Assembly (NCBI GenBank): GCA_944385365.1
Contig: CALWWW010000023.1
Location: 1-37,005, forward strand
Source: an uncultured Oscillospiraceae bacterium
GTDB taxonomy: Bacteria; Bacillota; Clostridia; Oscillospirales; Oscillospiraceae
DNA: 37,005 nucleotides
Direction of reading: 5' to 3'
Shown in pieces: positions 20,811-37,005 of this stretch (positions are counted from its first letter, which is position 1; every line of letters starts with the position of its first letter). The notes beneath the pieces were generated by a model that was not told where the DNA came from, ran no database searches, and saw only the letters and a program-made list of their open reading frames with translations. A program made the translations under genes and the position numbers.

Positions 20811-20892
20811 TACGGTTTTGCCGGGGAAATGTTAAGAATGTGGAAACAATGCAGCCAGTTTCTGGGGATGACGCCGAAGGATGGGATTTTCA

Positions 20893-20921
20893 TTTACATT
20901 TTGGGGAAAAGCGATTATAAT
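20893..20921 (+). promoter_or_regulatory. Promoter of the PfkB-family gene
   Basis: TTTACA (20893-20898) and a consensus TATAAT (20916-20921) are 17 bp apart, 36 bp before the ATG at 20958. No FruR-like operator was recognised. Confidence 0.7.
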
Positions 20922-20957
20922 GGTAGGCAGTAAATGAAAGAAACAGGAGAAGTCAGT

Positions 20958-21890
20958 ATGATTTTTACGGTAACGTTGTATCCGGCCCTGGATAAAGTCT
21001 CGGTGGTGCGGGACTTTGAGGTGGACGGTGTGAGCATGACGGAGCGTTCCCGGCAGTCGCCGGGGGGGCAGGGCATCCAGATATCCAGCGTGCTCCAGGG
21101 CCTGGGGGCCCGTACCGTGGCCATGGGCCTGATTGGCGGCGCCGCGGGGGACTGGATACGGGACCAGCTGGATTTGATGGGCGTCCCCAATGACTTCACC
21201 TTTACCGCCCATGAAACCCGAACCAATCTGACCATTCTGGACCCGGACAACGACACCTGCACCCGGATTCTGGAGCCGGGCCAGCCGGTGACGGCGGAGA
21301 ACCTCCAGGAGCTGTGGGAAAAGCTGGAGGAACAGGTCCGGCCCGGGGATACGGTGGTCTTTGCCGGAAAGAATCCCGCCGGCGTCACGGACCATCAGCT
21401 GGCCGACTGGATTACGGTCCTCCGGGACCGGGGCATCCGGACGGCTCTGGATACGGCGGGCATGGCCATGAAAATCGGCGTGGCTGCCGGTCCCACGGTT
21501 ATCCGGCCCGACCGGGCCCAGCTGGAGGCGCTGTGCGAGAAGGAGCTGCCGGACCGGGAAGCTCTGGCGGCGGCGGCCCATACCGTGGCGGCCAACGGCG
21601 TGGAACGGGTGGTGGTGACACTGAGCCACCGGGAGGCACTGTTTGTCACGGCAGGGGAGAGCTATCATGTCTGCGGCCCCATCCTGGAGACAGCGGCGGC
21701 CCGCGGCGCGGCCGACGCACTGCTGGCCAGCGTCCTGTGGGATACGGAGCAGGGGACAGCGTGGCAGGAGACGGCCCGGCGGGCCGTGGCCGTCAGCATG
21801 GCCCATGCGGCCTGTACCGGCGGCGCACCGGTGACGTTGGACGACGTGGAAGACCTGTATACCCAGATGGTTGTGGAGCCGCTTTCCTAA
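20958..21890 (+). CDS. Divergent PfkB-family sugar kinase (1-phosphofructokinase-like)
   Basis: A 310-residue ribokinase-fold protein closest in layout to FruK/LacC. The N-terminal TVTLYPALDKV replaces the usual NPALD, and SPGGQGIQISSVLQGLGA replaces GGKGxNVxxxLxxLG. DTAGMAM and RPDRAQLEAL stand where DTSGxxL and PNxxEL occur. The C-terminal anion-hole and catalytic motif GAGD reads RGAADALLASVLW, keeping the Asp but losing a Gly. It has the right length and appears intact, but so many signature positions differ that 1-phosphofructokinase activity is uncertain; another substrate is possible. The ATG at 20958 follows AGGAGA by 7 nt. No PTS fructose genes lie beside it, unlike typical fruK. It has its own promoter and terminator. 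Confidence 0.8.
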   Translation: MIFTVTLYPALDKVSVVRDFEVDGVSMTERSRQSPGGQGIQISSVLQGLGARTVAMGLIGGAAGDWIRDQLDLMGVPNDFTFTAHETRTNLTILDPDNDTCTRILEPGQPVTAENLQELWEKLEEQVRPGDTVVFAGKNPAGVTDHQLADWITVLRDRGIRTALDTAGMAMKIGVAAGPTVIRPDRAQLEALCEKELPDREALAAAAHTVAANGVERVVVTLSHREALFVTAGESYHVCGPILETAAARGAADALLASVLWDTEQGTAWQETARRAVAVSMAHAACTGGAPVTLDDVEDLYTQMVVEPLS

Positions 21891-21930
21891 CCATAGACGG
21901 TTTTTGACAGAAAAAGTTCCAGAAGAACGC

Positions 21931-21970
21931 CCGCGAGCGTACCGATGATTCGGCACGCCCGCGGGCGTCA
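21931..21970. terminator. Bidirectional terminator between pfkB-like and arsR-like genes
   Basis: The outer arms acgcccgcg and cgcgggcgt are perfectly complementary, with a further inner pairing around an accgatgattcgg loop. catttgtt follows. It lies between the convergent genes ending at 21890 and 21975. Confidence 0.7.
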
Positions 21971-21974
21971 TTTG

Positions 21975-22265
21975 TTATGCACAGTATAGGGCTTTCAGCC
22001 GTTCCATCAGGCCGTATAACCGCTGGTCGGCAATCTGATACTCCACAAATTGGCCGTGCTTGGTGCTGTCCACCAGACCAGCAGCCCGGAGCTTTTGCAG
22101 GTGTTGGGACAGTGCCGGACCGGTGATGTGGGGGACGGCCTCGCCCAGCTGGCCCACGGTTTTGGGCCCTTCCAGCAGGGCGCAGAGAATCAGCAGCCGG
22201 TTTTCATTGGCCAGCTGCCCCAGGAGGGCCGCCACGGCCTTGGCCTGTTCCCGCAGCTCAGCCAT
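21975..22265 (-). CDS. ArsR/SmtB-family winged-helix repressor
   Basis: A 96-residue ArsR-family regulator. LGQLANENRLLILCALLEGP, then TVGQLGEAVPHITGPALSQHLQKL, then RAAGLVDSTKHGQFVEYQI, form the usual helix-turn-helix and beta-wing. The metal-binding ELCVCDL motif of classical ArsR is absent and only two cysteines are present, so it may sense redox state or a thiol, or bind a ligand by other residues. It is the last gene of a three-gene operon and overlaps the membrane Fe-S protein gene by 8 bp, with AAGGAGGG 8 nt before its ATG. It probably autoregulates the operon through the AT-rich repeats at 23120-23135; this is inference. Confidence 0.88.
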   Translation of the reverse strand: MAELREQAKAVAALLGQLANENRLLILCALLEGPKTVGQLGEAVPHITGPALSQHLQKLRAAGLVDSTKHGQFVEYQIADQRLYGLMERLKALYCA

Positions 22266-22899
22266 GGCCGCAGCCCTCCTTGGAACAGGACGCGCAGCTG
22301 CCGGAGCAGGCGGGGGGCGGCGTTTTACCGGCCCGCAGCTTGCAAATCCATTGGGTCATGGTGCCCATGGGGCAGAAGACGCACCAGGAGCGGGGCTGGA
22401 ACAGGACCATGACAATGAGACCGATGAGGGTGGAGGTCAGCATCATACCGTAGAAGCCGAAGGCGAACTGGGCCACCCAGGGGGCGAAGACGGTGCCGTG
22501 ATAGGCCCAGTCCCAGGGGACCCGGAAGGTCCAGAACAGCTTGACGGCGGCGCTGACGGAGTTGGCGCCGGAGCCCACCAGATACGTCACCCAAAGCATC
22601 TGAAAGAACATGGCGAAGAAGAAAATCAGGAACCCGTACCGGAACCACTTGGAGCCAATCCAGCGGGGGGTGGGGTGGTTGCGGGACAGTTTCAGTTTTT
22701 TGCCCAGGAGGGTGAAGAATTGGCCCCGGTCACAGTAGCGGTTGCAGTAGAGCTTGCTGCCGCCGAAAATGGCAATGAGCAGGGGAAGACAGAAGAAAAT
22801 CATACCAATCCAGGCAAAGAGGATGTTGAAGAAGCCCAGGGCGAAATAGATGGGCGTCACAATCCAAAGATAGTCGTACCAGTGTTTTGTCTTGTTCAT
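22258..22899 (-). CDS. Polytopic membrane 4Fe-4S protein (NapH/CcoG-type Fer4_5)
   Basis: A 213-residue membrane protein with four or five hydrophobic segments. Two CxxxC pairs resemble the Fer4_5 domain of NapH, NosR and CcoG: YCNRYCDRGQFF near residue 50 and WCVFCPMGTMTQWIC near 180. A cysteine-rich tail CSGSCASCSKEGCGHG could bind another metal centre. It is probably an electron-transfer subunit passing electrons across or along the membrane to or from the upstream ferredoxin; the partner is unknown. The ATG at 22899 is chosen over upstream codons because GGGAGG lies 7 nt before it and it overlaps the ferredoxin stop by 4 bp (ATGA). No catalytic subunit is encoded in the operon. Confidence 0.8.
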   Translation of the reverse strand: MNKTKHWYDYLWIVTPIYFALGFFNILFAWIGMIFFCLPLLIAIFGGSKLYCNRYCDRGQFFTLLGKKLKLSRNHPTPRWIGSKWFRYGFLIFFFAMFFQMLWVTYLVGSGANSVSAAVKLFWTFRVPWDWAYHGTVFAPWVAQFAFGFYGMMLTSTLIGLIVMVLFQPRSWCVFCPMGTMTQWICKLRAGKTPPPACSGSCASCSKEGCGHG

Positions 22900-23102
22900 A
22901 CGGCGGCCTCCCGGTTGTTGAGGACAATGGCCCCGGCGGGGCATTCTTTCTGACACTTGCCGCAGCCGATGCACAGCGCACCGTCCACCACGGCGGTGAC
23001 GCCGCGCCAGACGGAGACGGCTCCCTTGGGACAGACCTTGCAGCAGCTGCCGCAGGCCACACAGCGGCCGCTGTCGACGGCGGCCAGTCGTTTCGATGGC
23101 AT
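22896..23102 (-). CDS. 2[4Fe-4S] ferredoxin
   Basis: A 68-residue small ferredoxin with two typical cluster motifs, CVACGSCCKVCPKG and CIGCGKCQKECPAG, in the CxxCxxCxxxCP arrangement. It should carry electrons at low potential. GGAGGAA precedes the ATG by 6-7 nt and a near-consensus promoter lies upstream. It is the first gene of an operon with the membrane Fe-S protein and the ArsR-type regulator, which suggests a regulated electron-transfer module. Confidence 0.92.
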   Translation of the reverse strand: MPSKRLAAVDSGRCVACGSCCKVCPKGAVSVWRGVTAVVDGALCIGCGKCQKECPAGAIVLNNREAAV

Positions 23103-23119
23103 GATGGTTCCTCCATAAT

Positions 23120-23171
23120 AATTAAGTAATTAAGCAACTACTAATATAATAGAACCAGAGCAATTTGTCAA
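23120..23171 (-). promoter_or_regulatory. Ferredoxin operon promoter with AT-rich direct repeats
   Basis: On the minus strand TTGACA (23166-23171) and TATATT (23143-23148) are 17 bp apart. Downstream of the -10 box, aattaagt/aattaagc form two direct 8-bp repeats (23120-23127 and 23128-23135, + strand). These are candidate operator sites for the ArsR-type protein encoded by the same operon. Confidence 0.65.
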
Positions 23172-23202
23172 CCCGGATTGGATAGGGGAGGGGACAAAGC
23201 GG

Positions 23203-23230
23203 TATGGGAGGGCTGGAGGGCCCTCCCATA
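23203..23230 (-). terminator. Hairpin downstream of the sigK 3' part
   Basis: tatgggaggg (23203-23212) pairs perfectly with ccctcccata (23221-23230), starting 3 bp after the sigma-K stop. The T-run on the minus strand is weak, so termination efficiency is uncertain. Confidence 0.5.
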
Positions 23231-23233
23231 TGT

Positions 23234-23593
23234 TCAGGAATCCCGGAACGCTGCTTCCAGCTTTTGCAGAGCCTTTTTCTCAATGCGGGAGATATAGGAC
23301 CGGGAGATGCCGCACTGCTGCGCCACCTCCCGCTGGGTCAGAGGCTTGCGGCCGCCCAGTCCATAGCGCAGCTGGACCACCAGCAATTCCCGGTCCGTCA
23401 GGACCTCTTTCATGGCCTTGTGGAGCCGCGCCGCATTTTCCCGGGCGCTGAGGTCCTCAAACAAATCGTCATCGGTGCAGATGACGTCCATCAGAGACAG
23501 GGCGTTGCCGTCCTTGCCGGTTTCTATGTAATCGGACAGAGAAACGTCGCTGCTGGACTTTTTCTGACTGCGAAAGTGCATCAGGATTTCATT
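23234..23593 (-). CDS. sigK: Sporulation sigma-K, C-terminal half (split gene, spoIIIC-like)
   Basis: This 119-codon segment encodes the back half of the late mother-cell sigma factor. It starts at NEILMHFRSQKK, passes through VSLSDYIETGKDGNALSLMD (region 3) and ends in region 4 with the LTQREVAQQCGISRSYISRI helix-turn-helix. The wording is sigma-K rather than sigma-E. The first conserved codons, AAT GAA, contain the sequence AATGA, the crossover core known for B. subtilis sigK. Upstream of it, in this frame, sequence homology stops and the recombinase gene occupies another frame. No N-terminal half (regions 1-2) was found on either strand of the window. It is therefore either one half of a gene split by a skin-like element or a decayed remnant. 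Confidence 0.88.
   Translation of the reverse strand, partial: NEILMHFRSQKKSSSDVSLSDYIETGKDGNALSLMDVICTDDDLFEDLSARENAARLHKAMKEVLTDRELLVVQLRYGLGGRKPLTQREVAQQCGISRSYISRIEKKALQKLEAAFRDS
23589..23593 (-). other. Candidate sigK recombination core (att site)
   Basis: AATGA on the minus strand, within gcaAATGAaatcctgatg. It is at once the Asn-Glu codons of sigma-K and the last bases of the recombinase gene, whose TGA stop is 23589-23591. Position and sequence match the skin crossover in B. subtilis as I know it. The partner site is not in the window. Confidence 0.6.
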
Positions 23594-25403
23594 TGCTACC
23601 CTCGCCCCAATGGGTTTTTGCACCGTCGGTGGTTTCTGCAACGTTCGGCAAGTCCTCCTCGTAATCGACGTCGGAATAGGGGAGAAGCTCCTCGGTCTCG
23701 TCCTCCGCATCCTCCTGGACAGAACTGCCGGACGAAAGCAGCGGGTACTCAATCTCTTCGTCCTGCACACCGAACAGCACCACATGGGCGTGGACGCCGT
23801 CCCAGATGACTTTCCGGACCACGGTCCGAATGGCGGCCCGTTTCTGTTCCAGGGACATCTCTGGAACGCCCTCCCGGAAGACAGCCAAAAGCTGCCGCAG
23901 CAGGTCAAACTCCAGATCACTGAGGGTGTGCTGGGCGGTCAACCCCTCCAGCTCCTGTATCTGTTTGGTCAGGTCGTCACATTGGCTGCTGAGGACTTCA
24001 ATGCGCCGGGACACCTGGGAGCGGGCGGCGGGCTCCGGGATATCGGCCAGGGAATCCACCAGAGCGTCCAGTTTCTTCTCCAACTCCCGCTTTTCAGTCC
24101 GCAGACCGTCCAACCGCTGTTCGTAGTCCATGCGATTGCCCGTATAGAATTTGCGGCTCTGCTCCAACTGGCGGAGAAACGTGTCCTGATCCTCCGGCAG
24201 CTGTTTGAGCTGTTCGAGGATGGCCAGATCCAATCGATTGCCGTTGGCATTTTTACTGTTGCAGAGGGAACGCTGACTGCGTTCTTTCAGCTTGCACACA
24301 TAGGTATAGACGGGGCTGCCGTCGGCGGTTTTCCGCTTGGAAACCTTGGGGTACATCCGTTCTCCGCAGCGGCAATAGAGCAGACCCGTCAGCAGCGCTT
24401 CGTTGCTGCGGGGCTTGCGGAAGGCTTTCGATTTGTTCCGCTCCAGAGATTCCTGAATGGTGACCCAGACTTTGCCGGGAATCAGTCCTGGATGCTTGCC
24501 CACGGACACAATCCAATCCCTGGGGGGCAGATAGACCGTGGCCCGGCCCTTTTCCTGGTCCGTGCGGTTATAGGCCATCATGCCGTGGACGCCGTCGAAC
24601 TCGCTTCGCTCGGAAAACAGGTCCGTCTCATGCTGCTGGAAGTAGTCATAGGCTTCCTGGTCGGCAATCAGATAGACAGGGTTCTGCAAAATGGACTTGA
24701 TGGAAAATCGCGTGAAGTGGTTTCCGTTCTTCGTCTGAATCCCGCGCTGCATTAGCCGGGCTTCGGTGAGGGTTAGAGAATCCGTTTCCAGATACAATGC
24801 AAAAATGGTTTTGACGATCTCCGCTTCCTCGGGAATCAGCTTCAATTTGCAGGCTTTTTTCGTTTTGCCGTCCATCGTTACGCTTTTGACGGCTTCGGAC
24901 CCATAACCGGTGGGGGTGTTGCCGCCCAGCCACCGGCCAGTTTTGGCCAGCTCCTGCATGTTGTCCCGAATGCGTTCGGCAATGGTTTCCCGTTCCAGCT
25001 GGGAAAAGACGGAGGCAATGTACATCATGGCCCGGCCCATGGGGGTGCTGGTGTCGAATTGCTCCTTGATGGAGATAAAGGCGATGTTTAACCGGGACAA
25101 TTCTTCGATCAGGCCGGAAAAGTCGCTGACATTGCGGCTGATCCGGTCCAGCCGATAGACGATAATGGCTTGAAACTGCCGCTGCCGGGCGGCGTCCATC
25201 ATGCGCTGAAAGGCCGGACGGTTGAGATTGCCGCCGGAAAACCCCTCGTCCTCATAGATGACCAGCTGTTCCGCGGCCTGCTCGCCAAAGTGCAGCCGCA
25301 CGTATTCTTTGCAAAGCTCCACCTGATTGCCAATGCTCTCGCCCTTGCCGGTAAACCGGGACTTGCGGGAGTAGAGGGCGATGGTTTGGGCCGGAATTGC
25401 CAT
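23589..25403 (-). CDS. Large serine recombinase (SpoIVCA-like sigK element excisionase)
   Basis: A 604-residue large serine recombinase. The resolvase catalytic domain (about 8-155) opens with ALYSRKS (nucleophile Ser12). It contains IVYRLDRISRNVSDF and QLERETIAERIRDNM. A recombinase DNA-binding domain (about 165-290) follows, then a zinc-ribbon region with CRCGERMYPK and a YTYVCKLKERSQRSLC segment, a long coiled coil (about 385-460) and an acidic tail. AGGAGGA precedes the ATG. The family includes SpoIVCA, which excises the skin element from sigK in the mother cell. Here the gene abuts the sigK 3' half and its stop codon lies inside the presumed crossover core. No frameshift or loss of catalytic residues was seen, so it may be active. 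A TATAAT lies upstream, but no clear -35 box. Confidence 0.93.
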   Translation of the reverse strand: MAIPAQTIALYSRKSRFTGKGESIGNQVELCKEYVRLHFGEQAAEQLVIYEDEGFSGGNLNRPAFQRMMDAARQRQFQAIIVYRLDRISRNVSDFSGLIEELSRLNIAFISIKEQFDTSTPMGRAMMYIASVFSQLERETIAERIRDNMQELAKTGRWLGGNTPTGYGSEAVKSVTMDGKTKKACKLKLIPEEAEIVKTIFALYLETDSLTLTEARLMQRGIQTKNGNHFTRFSIKSILQNPVYLIADQEAYDYFQQHETDLFSERSEFDGVHGMMAYNRTDQEKGRATVYLPPRDWIVSVGKHPGLIPGKVWVTIQESLERNKSKAFRKPRSNEALLTGLLYCRCGERMYPKVSKRKTADGSPVYTYVCKLKERSQRSLCNSKNANGNRLDLAILEQLKQLPEDQDTFLRQLEQSRKFYTGNRMDYEQRLDGLRTEKRELEKKLDALVDSLADIPEPAARSQVSRRIEVLSSQCDDLTKQIQELEGLTAQHTLSDLEFDLLRQLLAVFREGVPEMSLEQKRAAIRTVVRKVIWDGVHAHVVLFGVQDEEIEYPLLSSGSSVQEDAEDETEELLPYSDVDYEEDLPNVAETTDGAKTHWGEGSK

Positions 25404-25544
25404 GGATTGTCCTCCTTGCTCCTGTGTGGTATAGTTGGCGTGATTATACCATAACGTAACAAACTTATAAGCAGAAGCGTGGCGCTTGGCCGTGCCCGCG
25501 CCCCTGTATGGCGCAGATACCAGAGAGGATTGTTTCTCATAGGC

Positions 25545-25573
25545 TTGTCATATGAATTTGAACATGATAAAAT
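25545..25573 (+). promoter_or_regulatory. Promoter of the hemerythrin-CheX gene
   Basis: TTGTCA (25545-25550) and TAAAAT (25568-25573) are 17 bp apart, 43 bp before the ATG at 25617. The rest of 25404-25616 holds only the recombinase upstream region. Confidence 0.65.
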
Positions 25574-25616
25574 AAATCAAAAACTGAGTTTTTTGTAAAA
25601 GAGGTATCAACAACGC

Positions 25617-26459
25617 ATGATGTGGAAAGACACCTACCGAATCGGGGTAGATCGGATTGACCAGCAGCATATGGAGCTGTTCCGGATAACGGAGGAACTG
25701 GTAAACGCAGTCAAAGAAGGCGCGGCAGTAGAAGTCTACCAGAGAATTCTGGGATTTTTGAAGGACTATGTGATTTATCACTTCCGGGATGAGGAAGCGT
25801 ATCAGGAATCCATCCATTACAGCGGCATCGAAGCCCATAAGGAGGAGCACCGGCAGTTTACGGAGACGGTGCTCCACTACGAAGAACGGCTGACGGCCAA
25901 CGGATTCAACGAGAAAACCATGAAAGATCTGGCCGGTACGGTGACGGCCTGGCTGATTTATCACGTGGTGGATACCGATCAAAAGATCGTATCCGGCGAA
26001 GCGCCCGCCGGTGAGGAGAAACAGTTTGATCAGTTTGTGGATTTGTTCGCCCACAGCGCCTTGGATATGATGGAAACCATGGCGGGCCTGGACCAGAGCA
26101 GTGCGCAGCTGCAAACGGTCGGTTCCGATCAGCCCCAGGGGGATGTGTTTGTCACCATCCAACTGGTGGACGATTTGAACGGAAAGGCGGTTTTTGGTTT
26201 TTCCAAGGAGCTGGCGCTCCATCTGCTGGAGAGCATGACCGGCATGGAACTGACCGAGGTGGACGAGCTGGTGCAGTCTGCCCTTTGTGAGCTGACGAAC
26301 ATTTCCTGCGGAAATGCCGCGACGGCCTTGACCAAGCGCGGCCTGCAATGTGATATTAAACCGCCGGTGCTCTCCAACGAGTTCCCCGGCGAGAACACGG
26401 GCAGCGGCATCCGGATTGATACCGCCTTCGGGCCCATGGAAGTCGGCGTACTGCTGTAA
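25617..26459 (+). CDS. Hemerythrin-CheX fusion protein
   Basis: A 280-residue two-domain protein. Residues 1-125 form a bacteriohemerythrin with all seven di-iron ligands recognisable: His18, His55, Glu59, His74, His78, His116 and Asp121. Such domains bind oxygen reversibly. Residues about 135-280 resemble CheX, a CheY-P phosphatase: ALCELTNISCGNAATAL holds the ExxN catalytic pair and the following GN. Together they suggest oxygen-dependent control of a phosphorylated response regulator, though no che genes are in view and the target is unknown. The start has AAGAGGT upstream; ATG at 25620 is an alternative. The HTH-kinase pair follows after 81 bp and may be co-transcribed. Confidence 0.83.
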   Translation: MMWKDTYRIGVDRIDQQHMELFRITEELVNAVKEGAAVEVYQRILGFLKDYVIYHFRDEEAYQESIHYSGIEAHKEEHRQFTETVLHYEERLTANGFNEKTMKDLAGTVTAWLIYHVVDTDQKIVSGEAPAGEEKQFDQFVDLFAHSALDMMETMAGLDQSSAQLQTVGSDQPQGDVFVTIQLVDDLNGKAVFGFSKELALHLLESMTGMELTEVDELVQSALCELTNISCGNAATALTKRGLQCDIKPPVLSNEFPGENTGSGIRIDTAFGPMEVGVLL

Positions 26460-26540
26460 AACGGCTCCCATCCGGTCCGTGTCCGGCGCTTCCGGGGAGT
26501 GCGGAGCGTTCGCCATGGAGCAGATAAGGAGGGGAGTACC

Positions 26541-26951
26541 ATGCAATCAACGCAGGAACTGGAACATACCATCCGGGAGAGCAAGGAACCGTCGATCCTG
26601 AAAGAGGACGTCTTTTCTATGCCCGATCTGACAGCCTATCTCAACGGTCTGCTGCAGGAACACCATCTGACGGTGCAGGATATCGTGGTGCGCTGTAATC
26701 TGGACCGCAGCTATGGATATCAGCTGTTCAACGGAACCCGGAACCCCACCCGTAACTTCCTGTTGCGTCTGGCGCTGCTGCTGAACCTGGAGGAGGCCGT
26801 GGCCCAGCGGCTGCTGAATCTGGCGGGCCGGCAGCCCCTGTATGCCCGGAACCGCCGGGATGCCGCCGTTTTATACAGTCTTTCCCATGGTCTGACGCTG
26901 GAGGAAGCGGAAGCGCTTTTGGCCGATCTCGGAGAGGAGGGACTGGCATGA
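26541..26951 (+). CDS. Small helix-turn-helix protein coupled to the kinase
   Basis: A 136-residue protein with an XRE/Cro-like helix-turn-helix at about 35-85: NGLLQEHHLTVQDIVVRCNL, then YGYQLFNGTRNPTRNFLLRL. The C-terminal third is helical (DAAVLYSLSHGLTLEEAEALL). I do not recognise a specific family. The frame is open to 26499, but the ATG at 26541 has AGGAGGGGAG in position. Its stop overlaps the kinase ATG by 4 bp (ATGA), so the two proteins are made together. It may be the kinase substrate or a DNA-binding output of the sensor; this is inference from context only. Confidence 0.8.
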   Translation: MQSTQELEHTIRESKEPSILKEDVFSMPDLTAYLNGLLQEHHLTVQDIVVRCNLDRSYGYQLFNGTRNPTRNFLLRLALLLNLEEAVAQRLLNLAGRQPLYARNRRDAAVLYSLSHGLTLEEAEALLADLGEEGLA

Positions 26952-28936
26952 AGCATATGGAACAGTTTTTGTCGGAATTTTCGCCGCTGCCGTTTACCCT
27001 GCCGGAGCGGGTCCGGACATCGTATACGGTGGAGTCTTGCCTGGCGGCCAGAGAGGACGGCGCTTCGGTCTGGCGCCTGCGGCGGCAGGAGGACCAAGCG
27101 TTGTTTGTACTGAAACTGACCGCGTCGGACGGGGAAGACCTGGAGGAGGAGGCCCGGATTCTGGCGCGGGTGTCGCCCTGCTTGCCGGGAGCGGTGCCGG
27201 AGCCGGTGGACTGCTTCCGGGAGGACGGAATCACCTACTTTCTGCGCACCTATTTGCCGGGAGAAACCCTGGTTCAGTGGCGGGAGCGGGAGGACGGCTG
27301 TACCGAGGAACAATGTATTGCCCTGGGGCGGCAGCTTTGCGCCCTGCTGGACGTGCTGCACCGCCAAGAACCGCCGGTGATTCACCGGGATATCAAGCCG
27401 GAAAATATTGTGCAGCTGCCCGACGGCAGGCCGGGGCTGCCGGATTTCGGCATTGCCCGGCAGTTCAAGGACGGCCAGGACACGGACACCAAACGGATGG
27501 GTACCCGTGCCACCGCCGCGCCGGAGCAGTACGGCTATGCCCAGACGGACCAGCGGACCGATCTCTATGCCCTGGGCATGACGCTGATCTGGCTGCTGAC
27601 AGGCCGGTATGACCGGGACGGACTGGCCCAGGTCCAGAACTGTTCCGCCTATTTGCGCAAAGTCCTGGAAAAAGCGGTGGCTTTCGCGCCGGAGGACCGC
27701 TATCAGAGTGCAAAAGCCTTTGCCGCTGCCCTGGGCGGCCGGTCTGCCGGGACGGCGAAGCGGCAGATTCTGGCGGCCGCGGCGGCAGCGTTGGTGCTGG
27801 CAGCGGGGGCCTGGACCCTGTGGCCCAGGGAAACCATGGCAGAACTGCCGCCGGAAACCATGAAAGCCGTGGAAGACGCAGAAAATGTAGAAACGATGGA
27901 AACCGTCCAGCCCAATCCTGAGACGGTGGAATTTACGTCCGCGGCCATGGAAGCCGCCGTACGGCAGGCGCTGTCGCAGCCGGAGGGACCGGTCACCTAT
28001 GACCAGCTGGAACAAATCCGGCGTCTGGCCGCCGTGGGGATGCTGACCTTTGGCGAGGAGCAGGCGTTTGATTACCGGGTCAGCTGCTTTGTGGATAACC
28101 AGTTTCAGGGCGATCAGCCCATGGGCGATATCACCGACGTGGATATGGCGTTGCTGGCCCATATGCCCAATCTGGAAACGCTGTATCTGTGCCGCCAGCC
28201 GGTGGAAGATATTTCGGTGCTGTCGGACTTGCCCTTAACCACCTTGGCCCTGTGTGAAAACGAAATTCAGGACGTTTCGCCCTTGGGCAATCTCCAGGGG
28301 TTAAAAACGCTGTACCTGGGCGGCAATCCCGCCACCGATTACAGCGTCCTGTCCAACCTGACAAAGCTGGAGGACCTGAGAGTGGAGGGCAGCGGCAGCG
28401 TCGGGATCTGCGTTGTGGACAGTCTGGACTTTCTGGACAGTTTGACATTGCGGAAGTTGGGCCTTGGGCTGACCGTACCCCAAGACGGCAGCTGGGAGCC
28501 CCTGACCCGGCAGATTGCCTTGGAGGAATTGCAGCTGTGGGACCCCAATGCCGACGCCGTGGCGGCGGCCAATACCCTGGTCGATCTGAAAACCTTCGGC
28601 ATCGGGGACTATTACGCCGCCGATTTGACAGCCCTGACCGGTATGGTCGGATTGGAAGTGCTGGGAATCCACAAGGGAAGCCTGGAAAGTCTGAAGGGGG
28701 TGGAATCCCTCACCCGGCTGTATACCCTGTCCATCGGGTTCAATAGGGTTTCCGATCTGTCCCCGTTGGAGGGCTTGCCCCAGCTGAATTATGTGCAGCT
28801 GGAAGACCTGGCAGTTACCGACTTTTCCCCCCTGAACCGGCTGCCTGCCCTGGGGGTCGTGGTGGTGCCCCAGGCCCAGGGGGCAGAGGTGGAGGCAGAC
28901 TGCCCCGGCCATACCTTTGAACTGCGAACCTATTAA
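26948..28936 (+). CDS. Transmembrane Ser/Thr protein kinase with leucine-rich-repeat sensor domain
   Basis: A 662-residue Hanks-type kinase. The cytoplasmic catalytic domain spans about 25-262, with a VAIK-type Lys56 (FVLKL), catalytic loop HRDIKPEN (146-153), DFG (166-168), activation segment GTRATAAPEQYG and TDLYALGMTL. The glycine-rich loop is degenerate. One membrane helix lies at about 273-292. After a linker, the extracellular part (about 400-650) carries leucine-rich repeats of the LxxLxxLxLxxNxIxDVSPL type. This differs from the PASTA sensors of PrkC. The usual activation-loop and metal-binding residues are present, so it is probably active. It is translationally coupled to the upstream HTH protein. 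A strong hairpin terminator follows the stop. Confidence 0.88.
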   Translation: MKHMEQFLSEFSPLPFTLPERVRTSYTVESCLAAREDGASVWRLRRQEDQALFVLKLTASDGEDLEEEARILARVSPCLPGAVPEPVDCFREDGITYFLRTYLPGETLVQWREREDGCTEEQCIALGRQLCALLDVLHRQEPPVIHRDIKPENIVQLPDGRPGLPDFGIARQFKDGQDTDTKRMGTRATAAPEQYGYAQTDQRTDLYALGMTLIWLLTGRYDRDGLAQVQNCSAYLRKVLEKAVAFAPEDRYQSAKAFAAALGGRSAGTAKRQILAAAAAALVLAAGAWTLWPRETMAELPPETMKAVEDAENVETMETVQPNPETVEFTSAAMEAAVRQALSQPEGPVTYDQLEQIRRLAAVGMLTFGEEQAFDYRVSCFVDNQFQGDQPMGDITDVDMALLAHMPNLETLYLCRQPVEDISVLSDLPLTTLALCENEIQDVSPLGNLQGLKTLYLGGNPATDYSVLSNLTKLEDLRVEGSGSVGICVVDSLDFLDSLTLRKLGLGLTVPQDGSWEPLTRQIALEELQLWDPNADAVAAANTLVDLKTFGIGDYYAADLTALTGMVGLEVLGIHKGSLESLKGVESLTRLYTLSIGFNRVSDLSPLEGLPQLNYVQLEDLAVTDFSPLNRLPALGVVVVPQAQGAEVEADCPGHTFELRTY

Positions 28937-28965
28937 AATCGGAAAAATGTGCAGCCCTGCACACC

Positions 28966-29013
28966 AAAACAAACCGGAATCGTGATATGATGATCACGAT
29001 TCCGGTTTGTTTT
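28966..29013. terminator. 20-bp bidirectional hairpin shared by kinase and XRE genes
   Basis: Arms 28966-28985 and 28994-29013 are perfectly complementary with an 8-nt loop. They are flanked by A-rich and T-rich ends, so it works in both directions. The right arm coincides with the last codons and stop (28994-28996) of the convergent XRE gene. Confidence 0.85.
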
Positions 29014-29353
29014 CGTCATGGGACAGGGCCGTCAGCTCCAGCAGGCTGTTGATGACTTCCTGAACGACCCGGAATTGCTCCGGGGGAAGCCGCCGCAGGC
29101 GCTGGGCGATGGCGTCGGCATCGTTGTCTGTGCTGGTACCGATCAGCAGAAAGTCGCTGGAAACCTGGAGGATCTCGCACATCCTCCGCAGTACAGCCAT
29201 GGAGACACCGGCCAGACCGCGCTCCACACAGGAGACGTTCTGAGGGGAAATGCCCACCAGTTCCGCAAATCGCTCCTGGGTCAGCCCTGCGGCCTCCCGG
29301 GCTTGCCGGATTCTGCGTCCCATGTCAATATTGAGTTGCTTTTTTTCACGCAT
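28994..29353 (-). CDS. XRE-family transcriptional regulator
   Basis: A 119-residue regulator with a canonical XRE helix-turn-helix at about 10-65 (GRRIRQAREAAGLTQERFAE, then LVGISPQNVSCVERG), followed by a helical C-terminal half (PPEQFRVVQEVINSLLELTA). The start is uncertain: the frame opens with GTG at 29368 and ATG at 29365, but AGGAGGTGAT overlaps those codons, so the ATG at 29353 is preferred. The gene is divergent from the SLH surface-protein gene and their promoter regions overlap, which makes that gene its most likely target. Its 3' end is built into the terminator hairpin shared with the kinase gene. Confidence 0.87.
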   Translation of the reverse strand: MREKKQLNIDMGRRIRQAREAAGLTQERFAELVGISPQNVSCVERGLAGVSMAVLRRMCEILQVSSDFLLIGTSTDNDADAIAQRLRRLPPEQFRVVQEVINSLLELTALSHDENKPES

Positions 29354-29398
29354 GGGGCAGACCATCACCTCCTACCCATAGTTTAGCCAATGCGCCAC

Positions 29399-29427
29399 TT
29401 GACGAAAACAATGTGGTACTTTATAAT
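29399..29427 (+). promoter_or_regulatory. Promoter of the SLH protein gene
   Basis: TTGACG (29399-29404) and TATAAT (29422-29427) are 17 bp apart, a near-consensus promoter 57 bp upstream of the ATG. A minus-strand TTTTCG/TAAACT pair with 17-bp spacing for the XRE gene overlaps the -35 region. Confidence 0.7.
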
Positions 29428-29484
29428 AATTTAATACAATACATGAGAAATAAGAAAAGAGCATGAACACAGGAGGAGTGACCT

Positions 29485-32400
29485 ATGAGAAAACTGAAAC
29501 GATGGACGGCGGCGCTGCTGTGTGCGGTGCTGCTGCTGGGCCTGCTGCCCACCGCAGCCCTGGCGGCAGACGGCGGCTGGGCCCAAAGCGCGGTGGATAC
29601 CCTCAACGGGATTTACCAGACGTCGGTATTTTCCACTGACGATACCGCACCCATGACCGTGGGCGACGCCCGAATGGTTTTGACCGCCATGGGCAGTTCC
29701 GACGATGCTCTGACCGGCGGGGAGGGGGACCGGCTGACCCGCGCCATGGCCTGTGAAGTTCTGGCCGACGCCTTTTCCCTGTCCATCCCGGCGGGCCGGA
29801 GCGCCATTGCATATCTGTATGAAAACAACATCATCAACGGCGTGGGAGACGGTAATCTGAATGAGACCGGTTCTGTCACCTTGGCCCAGTTCGCCGTGCT
29901 GGCCTACCGGATTCTGAACCACACCGGCGGCGGCATGGGGTCATCCATTGACGGACTGAAACCGGGTACCGACGAATTTTACGCCTGGTTGTACCTGGCG
30001 GTGCGTAAGTGCGTCCCGTTTTCCGTGGTGAATACGCCCATCGGTACGGCAACCATCGAAACGTATACTGGCTCGTCCTTAAAGCCCAACCAACCGGCGG
30101 ACCGGGTGGTTTATGAGGTCAGCACCCAGTCCAAAACCGGTGAAGCCATCTGGGATGCCTGGGAGGCTGCACTGAGCGACCCGAACATCGGCGGTCGGAC
30201 CGACTTTATCGCCCCCGATTATGATGCACGGGATACGGTGTTGGAAGCGGCCACCAAGATGGTTCAACAGTTTGCGGCAGCGAATTACCAGGGGAATATT
30301 GAAGTGTTCCACGATGTGACGCCGGATAACTGGTACTATGACGGCATCCTCTATCTGACGGACCGGCAGTATATCATCGGCTATGGCGACGGCCAGTTCG
30401 GTGCTGATGACCGCGCGCCGCGGTATGAATTTGCCGTGCTGCTGTCCACCGTAGACGAGACCGTGCCCGCAACGGTGCAGGGACCGGACCGCATTCTGCG
30501 TTCCATTGAAAACGTATTGCAAAAAGGCTATATGACCGGTTCCGGCCAGGAGGAAACCGAAAATTGGGACCCATTTGCAGACGATTACTGGACCACAACC
30601 GTCACCCGGGAGGAAGCCACGGTGGGCATCCTCAAGATGCTGGAAGCCACAGAGGGCATCGATACCACCAGTGACAATCTGGCCATTCTGGACCGCTTTA
30701 CCGATCAGGGACAGATTGCGTTGGAAGCGTCCAAACCCTATCTGGCCTACGCTGTCAGCATGGGACTGCTGAACGGTACCAGCTCCACGACATTGTCCCC
30801 CAATGGGGAGACAACCCGCGCACAAATCGGCGTCCTCCTGTACCGCACGCTGATCGGTGTGGATGCCAGCAAAATGAAAGATTACGCCGACAATACGGCC
30901 TATGCCATACGGCCGGATACTACCCTGGTCTACGCTGTACAGCCGGATACCACCTTGGTTCGGACGTACATTGCCCCGCTGGCAGATACCGCAAACACCC
31001 TGACCTTGCGGGAGGACTGGCGGCTGACATCCGATCTGGACTTGCAGGTTCCGGCAGGTACGACGCTGACCATCGACGGCAACGGCCACTATATTTATGA
31101 AATGGGCGGTATGCTGCAAAACAGCGGTTTGGGCCAGGTGGTCTTTACAGCGGGAACGATTCTCTATCCCGCCGGGGAAAGCGGTCCCTGTACAACGGAG
31201 ACCTCCAACCAACTGATGGCAGCCCGGCAGCCCCACACGGTGACGGTTCTCCCGTCCAATAACGGTTCTATCACAGCCAGTGCGGCCACGGCCCAAATGG
31301 GCCAGACCGTGACCCTGACCGTGACACCGGCCAGCGGCTACCGCCTGGAAACCTTGACCGTCACCGACGGAGCGGGACAGGCTGTGACGCTCAACGGTGA
31401 TACATTTGTCATGCCTGCCAGTGATGTGACCATTACAGCCACCTTTGGCGTCCAGTCCGGCGGCGGCTCCACCGGCGGAGGTTCCACCGGCGGCAGTCCG
31501 TCCTCGGGTGGTACGGCTTCCGGCAATCAGACGGAAACCACCACCAACCCGGACGGTTCCACCACTACAACCGTGACCAATCCGGATGGTACCGTCACGG
31601 AGACCACCCAGTTCACCGACGGCTCCAAGGAAGTCGTGGAGACCAAGAAGGACGGCACGGTAACCACCACAACCACCGACCGCACCGGAAACAAGACCCA
31701 GGTTGTAGAGAACCCCGACGGCTCCAGCCGGACCACCGTGAAGAACGTGGACGGTTCCGGCTCCGTCACGGAGGTGACTGCCAGCGGCAGCGTGGCTGCA
31801 CACGTTACGCTGTCCGAAACTGCCGCAGCGGCAGGCGGGACGGTGACCCTGCCCATGCCGGATGTCCCGGTGACCACCCGCTGGGAGAGCGCCCCCACGA
31901 TTACCGTGGACCTGCCCGGACGCCATACGGTAGCAATTCCCGTTGAGAATCCCACCTCCGGCACCGTGGCCGTTCTGGTGGGGGAGGATGGCACGGAAAC
32001 CGTACTCCAGACCAGTATTCCCACAGAGAATGGCGTCGTTGTGACACTTTCTGACGGCGATACGGTGAAAATCGTGGACAACAGCAAGCGCTTTACAGAC
32101 GTTCCCGCTGGCTACTGGGGTGCGGACGCTGTGAACTTTGCCGCCAGCCGGGAGCTGTTCGGCGGTACCAGCGCCACGACGTTCTCCACGGATGCAGCCA
32201 TGACCCGCGCCATGTTCGTAACGGTCCTGGCCCGGTTGGAGGGTGTGGATACCGATACGGGCAGCACCTGGTATGAGGCCGGGCAGCAGTGGGCGATGGC
32301 CCATGGTATTTCCGATGGCTCCAACCTGGACCAGGCTTTGACCCGGGAGCAGCTGGCAACCATGCTTTATCGCTATGCGGGCAGCCCCGCCGTCAGCGGC

Positions 32401-32577
32401 AGTCTGAGTAGCAATGCCGATGGTGCCGCCGTCAGCGACTGGGCGAAAACCGCTATGATTTGGGCCGTGGAGGGCGGTTTGATTACAGGAACCGGCAGCG
32501 GCTTGCAGCCCCAGGGAACGGCTACCAGAGCGCAGGTGGCGACTATTTTGATGCGGTTCCTGGAAACACACCCCTAA
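29485..32577 (+). CDS. Secreted S-layer-homology (SLH) surface protein
   Basis: A 1,030-residue exported protein with a signal peptide (AALLCAVLLLGLLPTAALAA; cleavage about residue 28). SLH-type repeats appear in the first half, for example FHDVTPDNWYYDGILYLTDR near 274 and a YLAYAVSMGLLNGTSS unit near 415-460. A 10-residue tandem repeat (YAIRPDTTLV/YAVQPDTTLV) is at 473-492. A bacterial Ig-like repeat domain (HTVTVLPSNNGSITASA) starts near 583, followed by a GGGSTGG linker near 659. A Thr-rich stretch of NPDGS/TDGS units covers about 680-760. Three SLH repeats fill 869-1030 (RFTDVPAGYWGADAVNFAAS), which should bind the pyruvylated wall polymer. AGGAGG lies 8 nt before the ATG. No enzyme domain was recognised; adhesion or wall structure is likely. 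Confidence 0.88.
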   Translation: MRKLKRWTAALLCAVLLLGLLPTAALAADGGWAQSAVDTLNGIYQTSVFSTDDTAPMTVGDARMVLTAMGSSDDALTGGEGDRLTRAMACEVLADAFSLSIPAGRSAIAYLYENNIINGVGDGNLNETGSVTLAQFAVLAYRILNHTGGGMGSSIDGLKPGTDEFYAWLYLAVRKCVPFSVVNTPIGTATIETYTGSSLKPNQPADRVVYEVSTQSKTGEAIWDAWEAALSDPNIGGRTDFIAPDYDARDTVLEAATKMVQQFAAANYQGNIEVFHDVTPDNWYYDGILYLTDRQYIIGYGDGQFGADDRAPRYEFAVLLSTVDETVPATVQGPDRILRSIENVLQKGYMTGSGQEETENWDPFADDYWTTTVTREEATVGILKMLEATEGIDTTSDNLAILDRFTDQGQIALEASKPYLAYAVSMGLLNGTSSTTLSPNGETTRAQIGVLLYRTLIGVDASKMKDYADNTAYAIRPDTTLVYAVQPDTTLVRTYIAPLADTANTLTLREDWRLTSDLDLQVPAGTTLTIDGNGHYIYEMGGMLQNSGLGQVVFTAGTILYPAGESGPCTTETSNQLMAARQPHTVTVLPSNNGSITASAATAQMGQTVTLTVTPASGYRLETLTVTDGAGQAVTLNGDTFVMPASDVTITATFGVQSGGGSTGGGSTGGSPSSGGTASGNQTETTTNPDGSTTTTVTNPDGTVTETTQFTDGSKEVVETKKDGTVTTTTTDRTGNKTQVVENPDGSSRTTVKNVDGSGSVTEVTASGSVAAHVTLSETAAAAGGTVTLPMPDVPVTTRWESAPTITVDLPGRHTVAIPVENPTSGTVAVLVGEDGTETVLQTSIPTENGVVVTLSDGDTVKIVDNSKRFTDVPAGYWGADAVNFAASRELFGGTSATTFSTDAAMTRAMFVTVLARLEGVDTDTGSTWYEAGQQWAMAHGISDGSNLDQALTREQLATMLYRYAGSPAVSGSLSSNADGAAVSDWAKTAMIWAVEGGLITGTGSGLQPQGTATRAQVATILMRFLETHP
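30901..30960 (+). repeat. 30-bp in-frame tandem duplication in the SLH gene
   Basis: Two adjacent 30-bp units encode YAIRPDTTLV and YAVQPDTTLV. Most differences are in third positions, so the duplication is not very recent. Confidence 0.85.
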
Positions 32578-32616
32578 GTAATATGTTCTAAAAGAAAAAT
32601 TGCAGGTAAATTTTAA

Positions 32617-32666
32617 AGGCGCAGGGGATCGAACCTTGACGGGTTCAATCCCCTGCGCCTGTTTTT
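32617..32666 (+). terminator. Terminator of the SLH gene
   Basis: aggcgcaggggatcgaacc (32617-32635) pairs with gggttcaatcccctgcgcct (32641-32660) with one C-A mismatch, followed by gttttt. It resembles a tRNA T-arm plus acceptor end on both strands, but no tRNA body is present. Confidence 0.85.
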
Positions 32667-32857
32667 GCGGCTGCAATGACGGCATCCAATAACGCTGCTT
32701 TTTCCGCTGAGGGGCAGCGCAGCGTTTGTATGTAGCGATGGACCAGATCGGCATGGACACCGGCAACGCGTTTCGCCAGTTCCTGCCGTCCGGCTTCTGT
32801 TTTTGGGGCATGGACAATCACATGGATTGGAGCGCTTTTTCTGCTGATACCACCCAC
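32645..32857 (-). pseudogene. Small conserved-type hypothetical protein, start codon unclear
   Basis: Up to 70 codons are open. The peptide SAPIHVIVHAPKTEAGRQEL, then AKRVAGVHADLVHRYIQTLR with CPSAEKAALLDAVIAAAK, looks like a real protein. I recall similar IHVxVHxPxTxEGRxELAxR peptides near mobile elements, with low confidence. The best ribosome binding site, GGGAGG, lies 8 nt before an ATC codon (32848) where ATG would be expected. The only upstream in-frame start, GTG at 32857, directly abuts that site. Either the start has been lost, making this a pseudogene, or a non-standard start is used. The 3' end lies inside the SLH terminator hairpin. Confidence 0.45.
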
Positions 32858-32986
32858 CTCCCGACAGTGCAATCTATGCGGGAGAGACGGTCCGCTAGAC
32901 CCAATGTTTTGCAGGAGCGGGTGGGGACCTTGGCTGTGGGTTCCATTTATCAAGAACAGGACTGCTTTTTGCGTTAAAATGCTTAA

Positions 32987-33236
32987 TTTTTAATGAAATG
33001 CTGCCGAAATAAAATAGAGTATATGGATACTGGGACTGGACCGAATTGTTTTGGATTCTGTGGGAGAATCGCGGTCAGGCAGTCGGCCAACTGACATTTG
33101 GTGGCTCCGTTACGTTGTCAGATTGGCAGCGCAATCATTTCTTCCGATTGCAGGTGCATACCATGAGACTGTCCCGATGACCGGGAAGCACGAGGTCCTG
33201 TAACATATCTATCATTTGTTGAGAAGAAGGGTTTTT
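32987..33236 (+). promoter_or_regulatory. Possible promoter and long leader of the EAL gene
   Basis: TTTTTA (32987-32992) and TAAAAT (33010-33015) are 17 bp apart. If used, the mRNA would have a leader of about 215 nt. It holds several short stems, among them ctgaca...tgtcag, gcaatc...gattgc and tcccg...cggga. It does not match the c-di-GMP-I or c-di-GMP-II riboswitch cores as I know them. Confidence 0.35.
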
Positions 33237-35516
33237 ATGAATGCGCAGCGAATTCGGGCGAGCTTAAAAAAGCTGCTGGCAATCTTTATTGTCATTTGCC
33301 TATTGCTGGGAGGGGTTGCCCAATATCTGTTCCGCTCTGTTTCAGACCTCTATCTGGTGTCTGTGCAGGGACGGCTGGAAGAACGGGCGTTGCAATATAA
33401 AAAATCATTCCTGTTCAAAATGAATTCGGATTTGCAGATGCTGCGTGCAATGGCCTGCATGTTGGAAGATGCGGAACAAAACGCCACCCTGGACGATACC
33501 GGAAGATTGATGTCCAATCTGTGGGACGCCAGTATCACGGCGGGATTTGGCTGTCTGCGGTACTTTGATGTTCAGGGAGCGGGAAAACAGCTGCGTTCCG
33601 GCGAAGCGGTTACCACCATTCAGCTGGACCAACAGGTGGTGGAACTCCAGACGGTTGTGCAGCAGGCGCTGCAAGGGGAGCCGGCGTCCTCCAGTGCGTT
33701 CTATGACGCGTATTTGGGCTACAATGTTGTGGGGTACGCCGCGCCGGTGTACTCCAACGGCCAGATCAGCGGTGTATTGGCCTGCTCAGTCAGTACGGAA
33801 ACCTATGCGGAAATTCTGACCTGTGTCAGTTCCATCAGCGACATCGGAGCCGTCGCAGTGCTGAGCGCCGATGGGGAAGTGTTTGCTTCCACACGGACCC
33901 ACCAGTCTCAGGGGTTCTATGATCTGAATGGTTCCGACTATCTGAATGAAGAACTGTGCGGCAGGTTTATGCAGGCCTTGGCTGCGGAGGAACCCCAGTT
34001 TTTTGAGTTTACGCGCAATCATGTATCCCTGTATGCCTGTGTGATGCCGATGGGGATCAATACAGACAAAATTATCATCGTGGATACGGACAAAGGCGTC
34101 AGCGACGCCGTTTCGGATGTGGTGCGCTATGCGCATCTGATTGCGATTCTCTTTGCCGGAACGTCGATTCTGTTTGCTCTGGCCGTGCTGTGGCTGAACC
34201 GGCGGTACAGTATGCAGCTGCTCCAGGTGGCGTATCATGACCGGTTGACCGGGGCCTATAATCGTTATAAATTCTTCCAGCTCCTGGACCAGCGCCGCAA
34301 GAAGAATACGGCGTATACCGTCGCTGCCATCAATATCCGAAAGTTCAAATATATCAATGAATTGTTCAGCTCGGACCGTTCGGACCAGCTGCTCAAGGAT
34401 ATCTGCGCTGCGTTGCAGCGCTGTATGGAGCCGGGAGAGTTTTTTTGCCGGGATACGGCGGATACGTTTGCCATTTGTCTGAATACCGCGGACAGAGAAC
34501 GGGCCAAGGAGCGGCTGAACGCCATATTGGAACAATTAAAAGACAGCGGCCAGAACATGCACCCCACCTATCCGGTCACCTTCTATGGAGGATGCGCCAC
34601 GCCGGATGACTGTGTGGATAAAAACAGCAATGAGGAACTGATGAGCCATGTGATGCTGGCCCTGAGCTATGCCAAGCAATCGCAGCAAGCCACAGTTACC
34701 TTCTATGATTCCAAAGCCCATGACCGGGAAACGCTGAATAATTACATTGAGAATCGTATGGAATGGGCGCTGGAACACGGAGAATTCCAAATGTATTTTC
34801 AGCCCAAAATGGATTTGCAGAACCATACGATCAGCGGTGCGGAAGCGCTGGTGCGCTGGATTGTGGACGGCAAACAGACCATCTTCCCGGACCAGTTTAT
34901 CCCTCTGTTTGAACGGAATGGGTTCTGTATCAAGCTGGATTTCTACATGGTAGAAGAAGCCTGCAAGCAGATTCGGGCCTGGATGGACGACGGACGGTCT
35001 CCGATTCCCATTTCGGTCAATCAGACCAAGCTGCTGCTCTATGAAGATGACTATGTAGAGCGTCTGTGCGCCATCACCCGAAAGTATGACGTTCCCAACC
35101 GATACATTACGCTGGAGATTTTGGAAGGACTGGCGCTGGAAAATCCGGAAAAGGTTGCTGTTTGCATCGATCAGCTCCATAGCCATGGGTTCTCCATCTC
35201 CATGGACGATTTCGGCAACGGCTATGCGTCTCTGACGACATTGAGCCAGCTCCAGATCGATGAGCTGAAACTGGACCGTTCGTTTTTGCTGCAGGCCGAT
35301 CAGAACACAGAGCACAACCGCCGCAAGATTCTGGAAGTCGTCATCGAGGTGGCAAAACGACTGCATATTTCCATCGTGGCGGAGGGAATTGAGACGGAAG
35401 CCCATGAACAGCTGATGCGGGAGATGCACTGTAATTACGGTCAGGGCTACTTCTATAGCCGGCCCATTCTGGCCGATGAATTTACCGCGAAATTTCTGCA
35501 AAACGACGCCCAGTGA
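33237..35516 (+). CDS. Membrane c-di-GMP phosphodiesterase-like protein (Cache-degenerate GGDEF-EAL)
   Basis: A 759-residue protein with a membrane helix at about 13-35, an extracellular Cache-like sensor region to about 297, a second helix (about 299-322), a GGDEF-type domain (about 340-490) and an EAL domain (about 505-755). The GGDEF site reads RDTADTF, so cyclase activity is not expected. The EAL domain keeps the catalytic set: GAEALVRW, PISVNQTK, LEILEG, SMDDFGNGYAS, LKLDRSF and VAEGIET. It should hydrolyse c-di-GMP in response to an outside signal. The ATG at 33237 is preferred over an upstream TTG at 33216 because AGAAGAAGGG lies in position. A diguanylate cyclase gene follows 74 bp later, giving an opposing pair. 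Confidence 0.88.
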   Translation: MNAQRIRASLKKLLAIFIVICLLLGGVAQYLFRSVSDLYLVSVQGRLEERALQYKKSFLFKMNSDLQMLRAMACMLEDAEQNATLDDTGRLMSNLWDASITAGFGCLRYFDVQGAGKQLRSGEAVTTIQLDQQVVELQTVVQQALQGEPASSSAFYDAYLGYNVVGYAAPVYSNGQISGVLACSVSTETYAEILTCVSSISDIGAVAVLSADGEVFASTRTHQSQGFYDLNGSDYLNEELCGRFMQALAAEEPQFFEFTRNHVSLYACVMPMGINTDKIIIVDTDKGVSDAVSDVVRYAHLIAILFAGTSILFALAVLWLNRRYSMQLLQVAYHDRLTGAYNRYKFFQLLDQRRKKNTAYTVAAINIRKFKYINELFSSDRSDQLLKDICAALQRCMEPGEFFCRDTADTFAICLNTADRERAKERLNAILEQLKDSGQNMHPTYPVTFYGGCATPDDCVDKNSNEELMSHVMLALSYAKQSQQATVTFYDSKAHDRETLNNYIENRMEWALEHGEFQMYFQPKMDLQNHTISGAEALVRWIVDGKQTIFPDQFIPLFERNGFCIKLDFYMVEEACKQIRAWMDDGRSPIPISVNQTKLLLYEDDYVERLCAITRKYDVPNRYITLEILEGLALENPEKVAVCIDQLHSHGFSISMDDFGNGYASLTTLSQLQIDELKLDRSFLLQADQNTEHNRRKILEVVIEVAKRLHISIVAEGIETEAHEQLMREMHCNYGQGYFYSRPILADEFTAKFLQNDAQ

Positions 35517-35549
35517 TGGCGGCTGGAAACATCATTAGAAATCAGAAGA

Positions 35550-35575
35550 AACGCCAAACGAAGCAGTTTGGCGTT
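35550..35575 (+). other. Hairpin between the EAL and GGDEF genes
   Basis: aacgccaaac (35550-35559) pairs with gtttggcgtt (35566-35575) around a 6-nt loop, directly before the GGAGGAG ribosome binding site of the next gene. There is no long T-run. It could be a weak terminator or a processing or stability element that sets the ratio of the two proteins. Confidence 0.55.
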
Positions 35576-35590
35576 TGAGGAGGAGTATCT

Positions 35591-36934: not shown

Positions 36935-36955
36935 GCGTCAAACGTAACGGCGCAT

Positions 36956-36999: not shown

Positions 37000-37005
37000 C
37001 ATCAT

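Follow-up and report, generated by a model that had tools for sequence, protein, structure and literature searches.

The sporulation gene sigK of an uncultured Oscillospiraceae bacterium appears to be split at two sites, A (codon 72) and B (codon ~116), by two unrelated elements that each carry a large serine recombinase (LSR), and both excisions would be needed to restore it. We put the probability of this reading at roughly 0.7. The window, that is, the whole stretch of DNA analysed (37,005 nucleotides), is the entire contig C23 of an assembly of 64 contigs with 91% completeness and 1.08% contamination. Judged from its sequence, it contains one end, attR, of a skin-type element that interrupts sigK at an AATGA site, and what seems new is that this end forms part of a multiply split sigK, in contrast to the single interruption of the textbook. 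Skin-type elements are a classic bacterial programmed DNA rearrangement, and their persistence is debated, the element being viewed as a timing device, a selfish passenger, or both. A sigK of gut bacteria that unrelated recombinases break at two or three fixed sites makes this persistence testable in terms of the order of excision, the need for each excision, and a possible stabilising effect of one element on another. No doubly interrupted sigK, conjugative element in sigK, or interrupted spoIVA was found in the literature searched, a weak negative given the few subscription papers that this literature covered. The features of the window are as follows.

20888..23233: host flank 3' of sigK, with ferredoxin-type, NosR/4Fe-4S-type, ArsR-type, and fructokinase-like genes (named by eye from the open reading frames)
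23234..23593, minus strand: sigK 3' piece, residues ~116-234 plus stop (NCBIfam SigK models, alignment to the L051 gene)
23589..23603, minus strand: attR of element B, comprising the AATGA core at 23589-23593 and the element arm GAGGGTAGC at 23595-23603 (junction comparison)
23592..25403, minus strand: site-B LSR, 604 aa (PF00239/PF07508/PF13408, PHROG 95 integrase, homologues beside split sigK)
25404..37005: block right of the LSR, with genes for a hemerythrin-CheX protein, an HTH protein, a kinase-LRR protein, an XRE-type protein, an S-layer-domain protein, a GGDEF-EAL protein, and a GGDEF protein

The earlier note, made from the window alone, had described a truncated sigma-K, and the model searches bear this out. 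The SigK models cover window positions 23237-23599 on the minus strand only from model position 109 (TIGR02846, 109-226, E 2.5e-35) or 112 (PRK05803, 112-229, E 1.9e-37) onward, and the N-terminal half is absent from the window by tblastn. From 23599 to 23237 the minus strand reads VANEILMHFRSQKK...AFRDS in the SigK frame, and the 3' piece itself begins at the AATGA core. It shares 97% identity with residues 113-234 encoded by the unbroken sigK (234 codons) of Candidatus Avoscillospira avistercoris (L051). The SpoIVCA-type LSR that the note had seen abutting on the same strand is likewise there, with its Resolvase, Recombinase, and Zn-ribbon domains all present and with a TGA stop (23589-23591) that falls within the AATGA core.

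Among 80 relatives of the 3' piece, 37 were counted as split at the codon of the window, and in 30 of these a protein homologous to the window LSR is encoded upstream on that strand, at most 161 bp away as measured between alignment ends. Owing to this recurrence, the position of the LSR beside a sigK split at this codon is not considered a matter of chance. In the seven split relatives lacking the LSR, the contig extends just 105-911 bases upstream; one further locus, L119, also carries the LSR and was omitted by the identity cut. Matching N-terminal parts are present in relatives, and in L126 both sigK halves lie 2.8 kb apart. The suggestion that the window holds one end of a skin-type element is thereby upheld, and the N-terminal half that might have been missing everywhere is found in relatives.

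At the level of the family, the site-B LSR occurs in 29 of 300 genomes (E <= 1e-100), 24 of which have it next to a site-B piece of sigK. Its usual position is upstream of the 3' piece; in G030, G085, and G289 it converges on the upstream piece. The LSR is not beside sigK in G029, G038, G092, G192, and G209, of which G092 is without a site-B break and G209 has an unbroken sigK. The junction in the window reads GAGGGTAGC-AAATGAAATCC, and its arm GAGGGTAGC is the counterpart of the CTATCCTCAC-type arms found at attL in relatives. Junctions in G096 and L126 have AAATG and CTATCCTCAC / GTGAGGATAG-type arms, and variants occur in G154, G072, G252, G158, and G289. AAATG is common to both element ends in G096 and G154, ATCCTCA is common and next to the core in L126, and the junction of G117 is without AATGA and differs from those of the other relatives. 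Taken together, site B is best regarded as a family-wide skin site. The attL of element B was found neither in the window nor elsewhere in its own assembly.

The partner piece differs from what had been predicted, namely an N-terminal half beyond position 37005 with the AATGA core at its end. A search of the own assembly with the SigK model gave a sole near-full-length match, C40:13196-13819, which scores better as SigE; the other matches are the 3' piece in the window, a fragment at C40:2994-3185 (model positions 4-67), and weaker matches to other sigma factors. Hence no intact sigK, which the earlier note had named as the result that would speak against it, was found by this search. The fragment on contig C40 is the start of sigK, running from M to ...LIERNLRLVTHIMKK before the frame departs from sigK. 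This N piece ends at codon 72 (HIMKK/YYT), 43 codons before the site-B break. A second LSR (L024:1370-3001, plus strand), which has Resolvase, Recombinase, and Zn-ribbon domains and is ~24% identical to the window LSR, converges on the N piece and ends at the junction. Removal of the element in the window could not by itself rebuild sigK here.

The two contigs fit the intact gene of L051 like parts of a single locus. Along its 5134 bp, L051 aligns at 92.7-93.0% to C40 (1-955 and 994-2304) and to the window (2427-5134), the last alignment covering window positions 23594-20888 at 92.7% and breaking at 23594. Between its two L051 alignments, C40 has ~0.8 kb that L051 lacks. The 122 bp of L051:2305-2426, which reach from codon 72 to the AATGA core at codon 116, are in neither contig; they correspond to the middle piece of the gene and are the only part of the L051 sigK missing from both. 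The C40 and window pieces are accordingly best read as derivatives of one ancestral sigK. A 52-aa query for the middle piece found only other sigma factors in the own assembly, the best being a 57% match to SigE. Relative to L051, the N piece has 6 synonymous and 0 nonsynonymous differences and the C piece has 24 synonymous and 2 nonsynonymous differences. Such purifying selection is consistent with function, and part of the signal may predate the insertions. Moreover, the genome encodes SigE and SigG above the curated cut-offs, a SpoIIGA match below the cut-off, and a spoIVA ATPase-domain match within a 496-aa open frame, in keeping with the proposed sporulating lineage or relic of one. In the congener G006 (95% complete), no SigK-model match was better than 2.7e-21 and neither SigK nor SigE was found; the two genes lie 10 kb apart on C40, and one missing region could explain both absences.

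Site A is also a recurrent site. The LSR of the C40 type matches 69 of 300 family genomes (E <= 1e-80), and among the 29 best other loci (L139-L167) it abuts sigK codon 70-72 in 25, the remaining loci, L145, L164, L166, and L167, having no sigK beside the LSR. It either converges on the N piece or lies upstream of the next piece. AARAA is common to most site-A junctions, with arms like GCAAAGG / CCTTTTGC, and the N piece breaks at the C40 codon in 18 other genomes too. In G149, which belongs to another genus, the 45-nt element arm of C40 recurs identically, and identity to the end of the site-A element reaches 97.0% over C40:14-3039, although the N piece of G149 shares just 52% identity with the L051 SigK. 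The G149 element spans ~54.8 kb within sigK (81740-136502) and encodes a Relaxase, a T4SS-DNA_transf coupling protein, a TraG P-loop protein, PrgI, RepA_N, and a ParA-type protein; by this gene content it is taken to be a conjugative element integrated in sigK. A conjugative element homing to sigK would mean that control of sporulation can be acquired by conjugation. From the own genome just the 3-kb recombinase end of the site-A element was recovered, and when 13 kb from near the far end of that element in G149 were searched against the own assembly, no match exceeded 74 bp. The G149 element additionally holds an Aminoglyc_resit Pfam gene beside an IS1595-type transposase (L253, G149:C102, record 96182-97743), a gene which we take to be like the lincosamide resistance lnu genes. 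In G262, a site-A-type LSR (C38:7-2188, 73% identity, cut by the contig start) stands just upstream of an apparently intact sigK.

Genomes in which both sites are occupied were sought by searching the intact SigK protein against 65 genomes, namely 45 with site-A-type LSR matches and the 20 remaining site-B-LSR genomes. These take in 29 of the 29 site-B-LSR genomes and 49 of the 69 site-A-LSR genomes and were picked for carrying LSRs, and the counts are therefore not a family frequency. Breaks at both A and B could be read from the listed matches in at least eight genomes: G000 (the own genome), G072, G096, G117, G158, G174, G252, and G289. In six of them (G072, G096, G117, G158, G252, and G289) a middle piece runs into element sequence at site B, and the N, middle, and C pieces are all listed for G096, G117, G158, and G289. 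Among the same listed matches, G000 and G174 show no middle piece, and G072 and G252 show no C piece.

The three pieces of G096, and likewise those of G117, follow in order on one strand of a single contig. The elements measure ~8415 and 7740 bp in G117 and ~11217 and 6910 bp in G096. When both are deleted in silico, an in-frame SigK results, complete in G117 and reaching residue 218 in G096. A script supplied the G096 cores, AAGAA at site A and AAATG among four candidates at site B. For G117 the script gave no sensible core and overlaps of 2-3 bases were picked by hand, the frame at site B being kept only with the hand-chosen 3-base overlap.

The proposed arrangement in the own genome would thus consist of residues 1-72, a 43-codon middle piece, and residues 116-234, with a site-A element at the motif HIxKK/YYT that has its own, different LSR. 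Each LSR would act on the arms and core that belong to it and so excise its own element. On the model of B. subtilis and C. difficile (PMC5025042 and PMC6957869), this would probably take place in the mother cell, with the help of a directionality factor that the element itself encodes. Only both excisions together would yield an intact in-frame sigK. Both junctions in the own genome, the collinearity with an intact relative, and the three-piece genes of relatives can be read directly in the assemblies. For the own genome we infer the double split, since the middle piece and the far site-A end were not found in its assembly; the survival of the middle piece there, the presence of both elements in the same cells, and a sporulation-specific excision are parts of the same inference.

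The main rival to the double split is a mixture of strains binned together, one split at A only and another at B only, of which the assembly kept one end each. An assembly in 64 contigs at 91% completeness, in which sigK lies on two contigs that never meet, leaves room for such a mixture, and single-site splits outnumber double ones among the tabulated genomes. However, each sigK end turned up in a single version, contamination is 1.08%, C40 and the window stand at the same 93% distance from L051, and double splits do exist in relatives, which makes a mixture unlikely. The failure to find the middle piece in the own assembly could also mean that this piece is deleted or that sigK is dead, in which case late spores would not be formed and the elements would be debris. 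Such a relic is rated as quite improbable, as both recombinases are full-length open frames, the two sigK pieces show hardly any amino-acid change relative to L051, and SigE, SigG, and a spoIVA frame are present.

It might further be supposed that only the element in the window is real, an ordinary single skin element, and that the join on C40 is a misassembly. A plain N/C split is indeed what most of the 20 site-B genomes tabulated separately show, but 18 other genomes in which the N piece has this same break, one of them (G149) with the identical 45-nt arm, and the collinear host flank that C40 carries too render this explanation highly implausible. The double split is the preferred reading.

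A third break, site C, is found at codon 218. At several loci, SigK diverges after ISRSYVSR into a similar arm; loci with this break are L028, L029, L077, L112, L278, G083, and G285. The missing tail (VSRIEKKAL...) was located downstream in L077, L112, G240, G083, and G285, and between the SigK body and the tail lies a third LSR clade, with 64-83% identity among the four compared and ~23% identity to the site-A and site-B types. The window LSR, the C40 LSR, and the site-C LSR of G240 all match the PHROG 95 integrase. G186 showed no tail within 60 kb, and in G096 none appeared before the contig ended. In G083, a single-contig genome, the N piece, middle part, and tail follow in order and form a three-piece gene broken at B and C, a split that contig breaks do not explain since there is one contig. 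G240 combines A and C, and G096 appears to combine A, B, and C. In the congeners G002 and G003 the break is at site C, close to contig ends; the loci L028 and L029, from congeners and likewise with contig ends nearby, yielded no tail or third LSR. In the congeners G001, G004, and G005 SigK is unbroken to residue 231 or beyond. In L281 (G147:C47), SigK leaves the frame after ISRSY and gives way to a different sequence, and an LSR 33% identical to a site-C LSR is situated ~10 kb away on the contig; this is possibly a further insertion site.

A broader reading, to which we give even odds, is that sigK of the Oscillospiraceae is a multi-lock gene. Three LSR clades at ~23% identity would each have an attB site of their own within the 700-bp gene, at codons 72, ~116, and 218, where elements would accumulate, one of them conjugative and moved between genera. 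The gene would come in three or four pieces, and the two or three independent programmed excisions per mother cell would work as a coincidence gate. Furthermore, the findings suggest that predictors of sporulation applied to gut MAGs may miss sigK, its pieces being short and scattered over contigs.

Compared with known systems, the element in the window resembles the B. subtilis skin (SpoIVCA) in its gene, AATGA junction, LSR, and short inverted arms. It differs in that the LSR adjoins the 3' piece of sigK and shares its strand, in that no phage domain was detected in the 7 ORFs scanned right of the LSR (within 25.4-37 kb, the membership of these ORFs in the element being uncertain), and in that the gene is also interrupted, at another position, by a second element unrelated to the first. 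AATGA marks the sigK junction of B. subtilis according to the accessible text of PMC10745906. The earlier note had assumed the same junction in B. subtilis and C. difficile; this does not agree with the available portions of PMC5025042 and PMC6957869, in which skinCd occupies a sigK site different from that of B. subtilis. The window combines a junction at the B. subtilis-type AATGA site with the recombinase-beside-3'-piece layout of C. difficile (CD1231). The C. difficile skinCd, with CD1231 and the directionality factor CD1234, is one element only, unlike the double split here.

In the B. cereus group, as far as the accessible text of PMC10745906 extends, sigK insertions are found at nt 195 (island IV) and at nt 423 with AATGA (AH820, J7/J62), and excision has been shown for island IV and AH820. 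The group resembles the present case in having two alternative sigK sites in one species group, but has one insertion per gene. Its sites are 228 nt apart, as against ~132 nt between A and B in L051 coordinates, and the island IV site is therefore probably not site A. Mobile elements inside sporulation genes are also represented by gin (gerE), SPbeta (spsM), and yin (yabG), which unlike the present elements affect other genes with one element per gene. The first two rejoin the host gene in sporulation via an LSR (partial texts of PMC5595907, PMC4191935, and PMC10747680). The gin element carries three LSR genes, but within one element, and according to PMC5595907 it has no phage genes; by this analogy, absence of phage genes would not exclude membership in the skin type.

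LSRs related to the site-A type were also found outside the family, in 11 genomes among 391 searched, all 11 from other families (42-47% identity, E <= 1e-130), with no sigK within their ~1.5 kb flanks. Nine of the 11 (L263-L267 and L269-L272; L295 and L296 are G435 and G500 on this list) adjoin the C-terminal part of spoIVA, and in G435 and G500 the SpoIVA N-part, the LSR, and the C-part follow in order on one strand of one contig each. It looks as if spoIVA were a further interrupted sporulation gene. Within the family, 11 fetched LSRs at 40-42% identity (L284-L294) are near neither the sigK nor the SpoIVA query. On viral contigs, 6, 42, and 5 loci were found, of which 6/6, 8/42, and 2/5 were compared; LSR and sigK occur together at site B in four of these (L174-L177) and at site A in one (L216), and none of the compared cases was traced to the species of the window.

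The block right of the LSR (25404..37005) may be the rest or cargo of element B, or host DNA joined by rearrangement or misassembly. The 25.4-37 kb block is inserted relative to L051, and as a whole (25.45-37 kb) it is in none of six congeners, which gave only partial matches at 65-74% once short matches and repeats were set aside. Single genes of the block have congener relatives at the protein level, namely the S-layer type, the XRE type (72%), and the hemerythrin-CheX type (58%). In G004, the XRE and S-layer-type genes are adjacent on a 5.7-kb contig, as in the window, and sigK is unbroken; the assignment of 25.45-37 kb as firm element cargo was dropped on this account. With two of its genes neighbours in G004, part of the block may be host DNA, which would mean that the extent of the element, or the assembly, is not understood.

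Several minor features of the window are also recorded. The gene at 25617-26459 joins a hemerythrin domain to a CheX-like phosphatase domain, and its 58% relative is in G005. The ~76-bp sequence at the contig end (36930-37005) is a dispersed repeat that matches itself in reverse, with copies of up to 100% identity on the own contigs C5 and C21, once in G001, and 13 times in the congener G006, several times at contig ends. Between two genes, positions 18588-18860 hold short tandem repeats with RTPHHRTPRPGA-type units, visible in overlapping frames.
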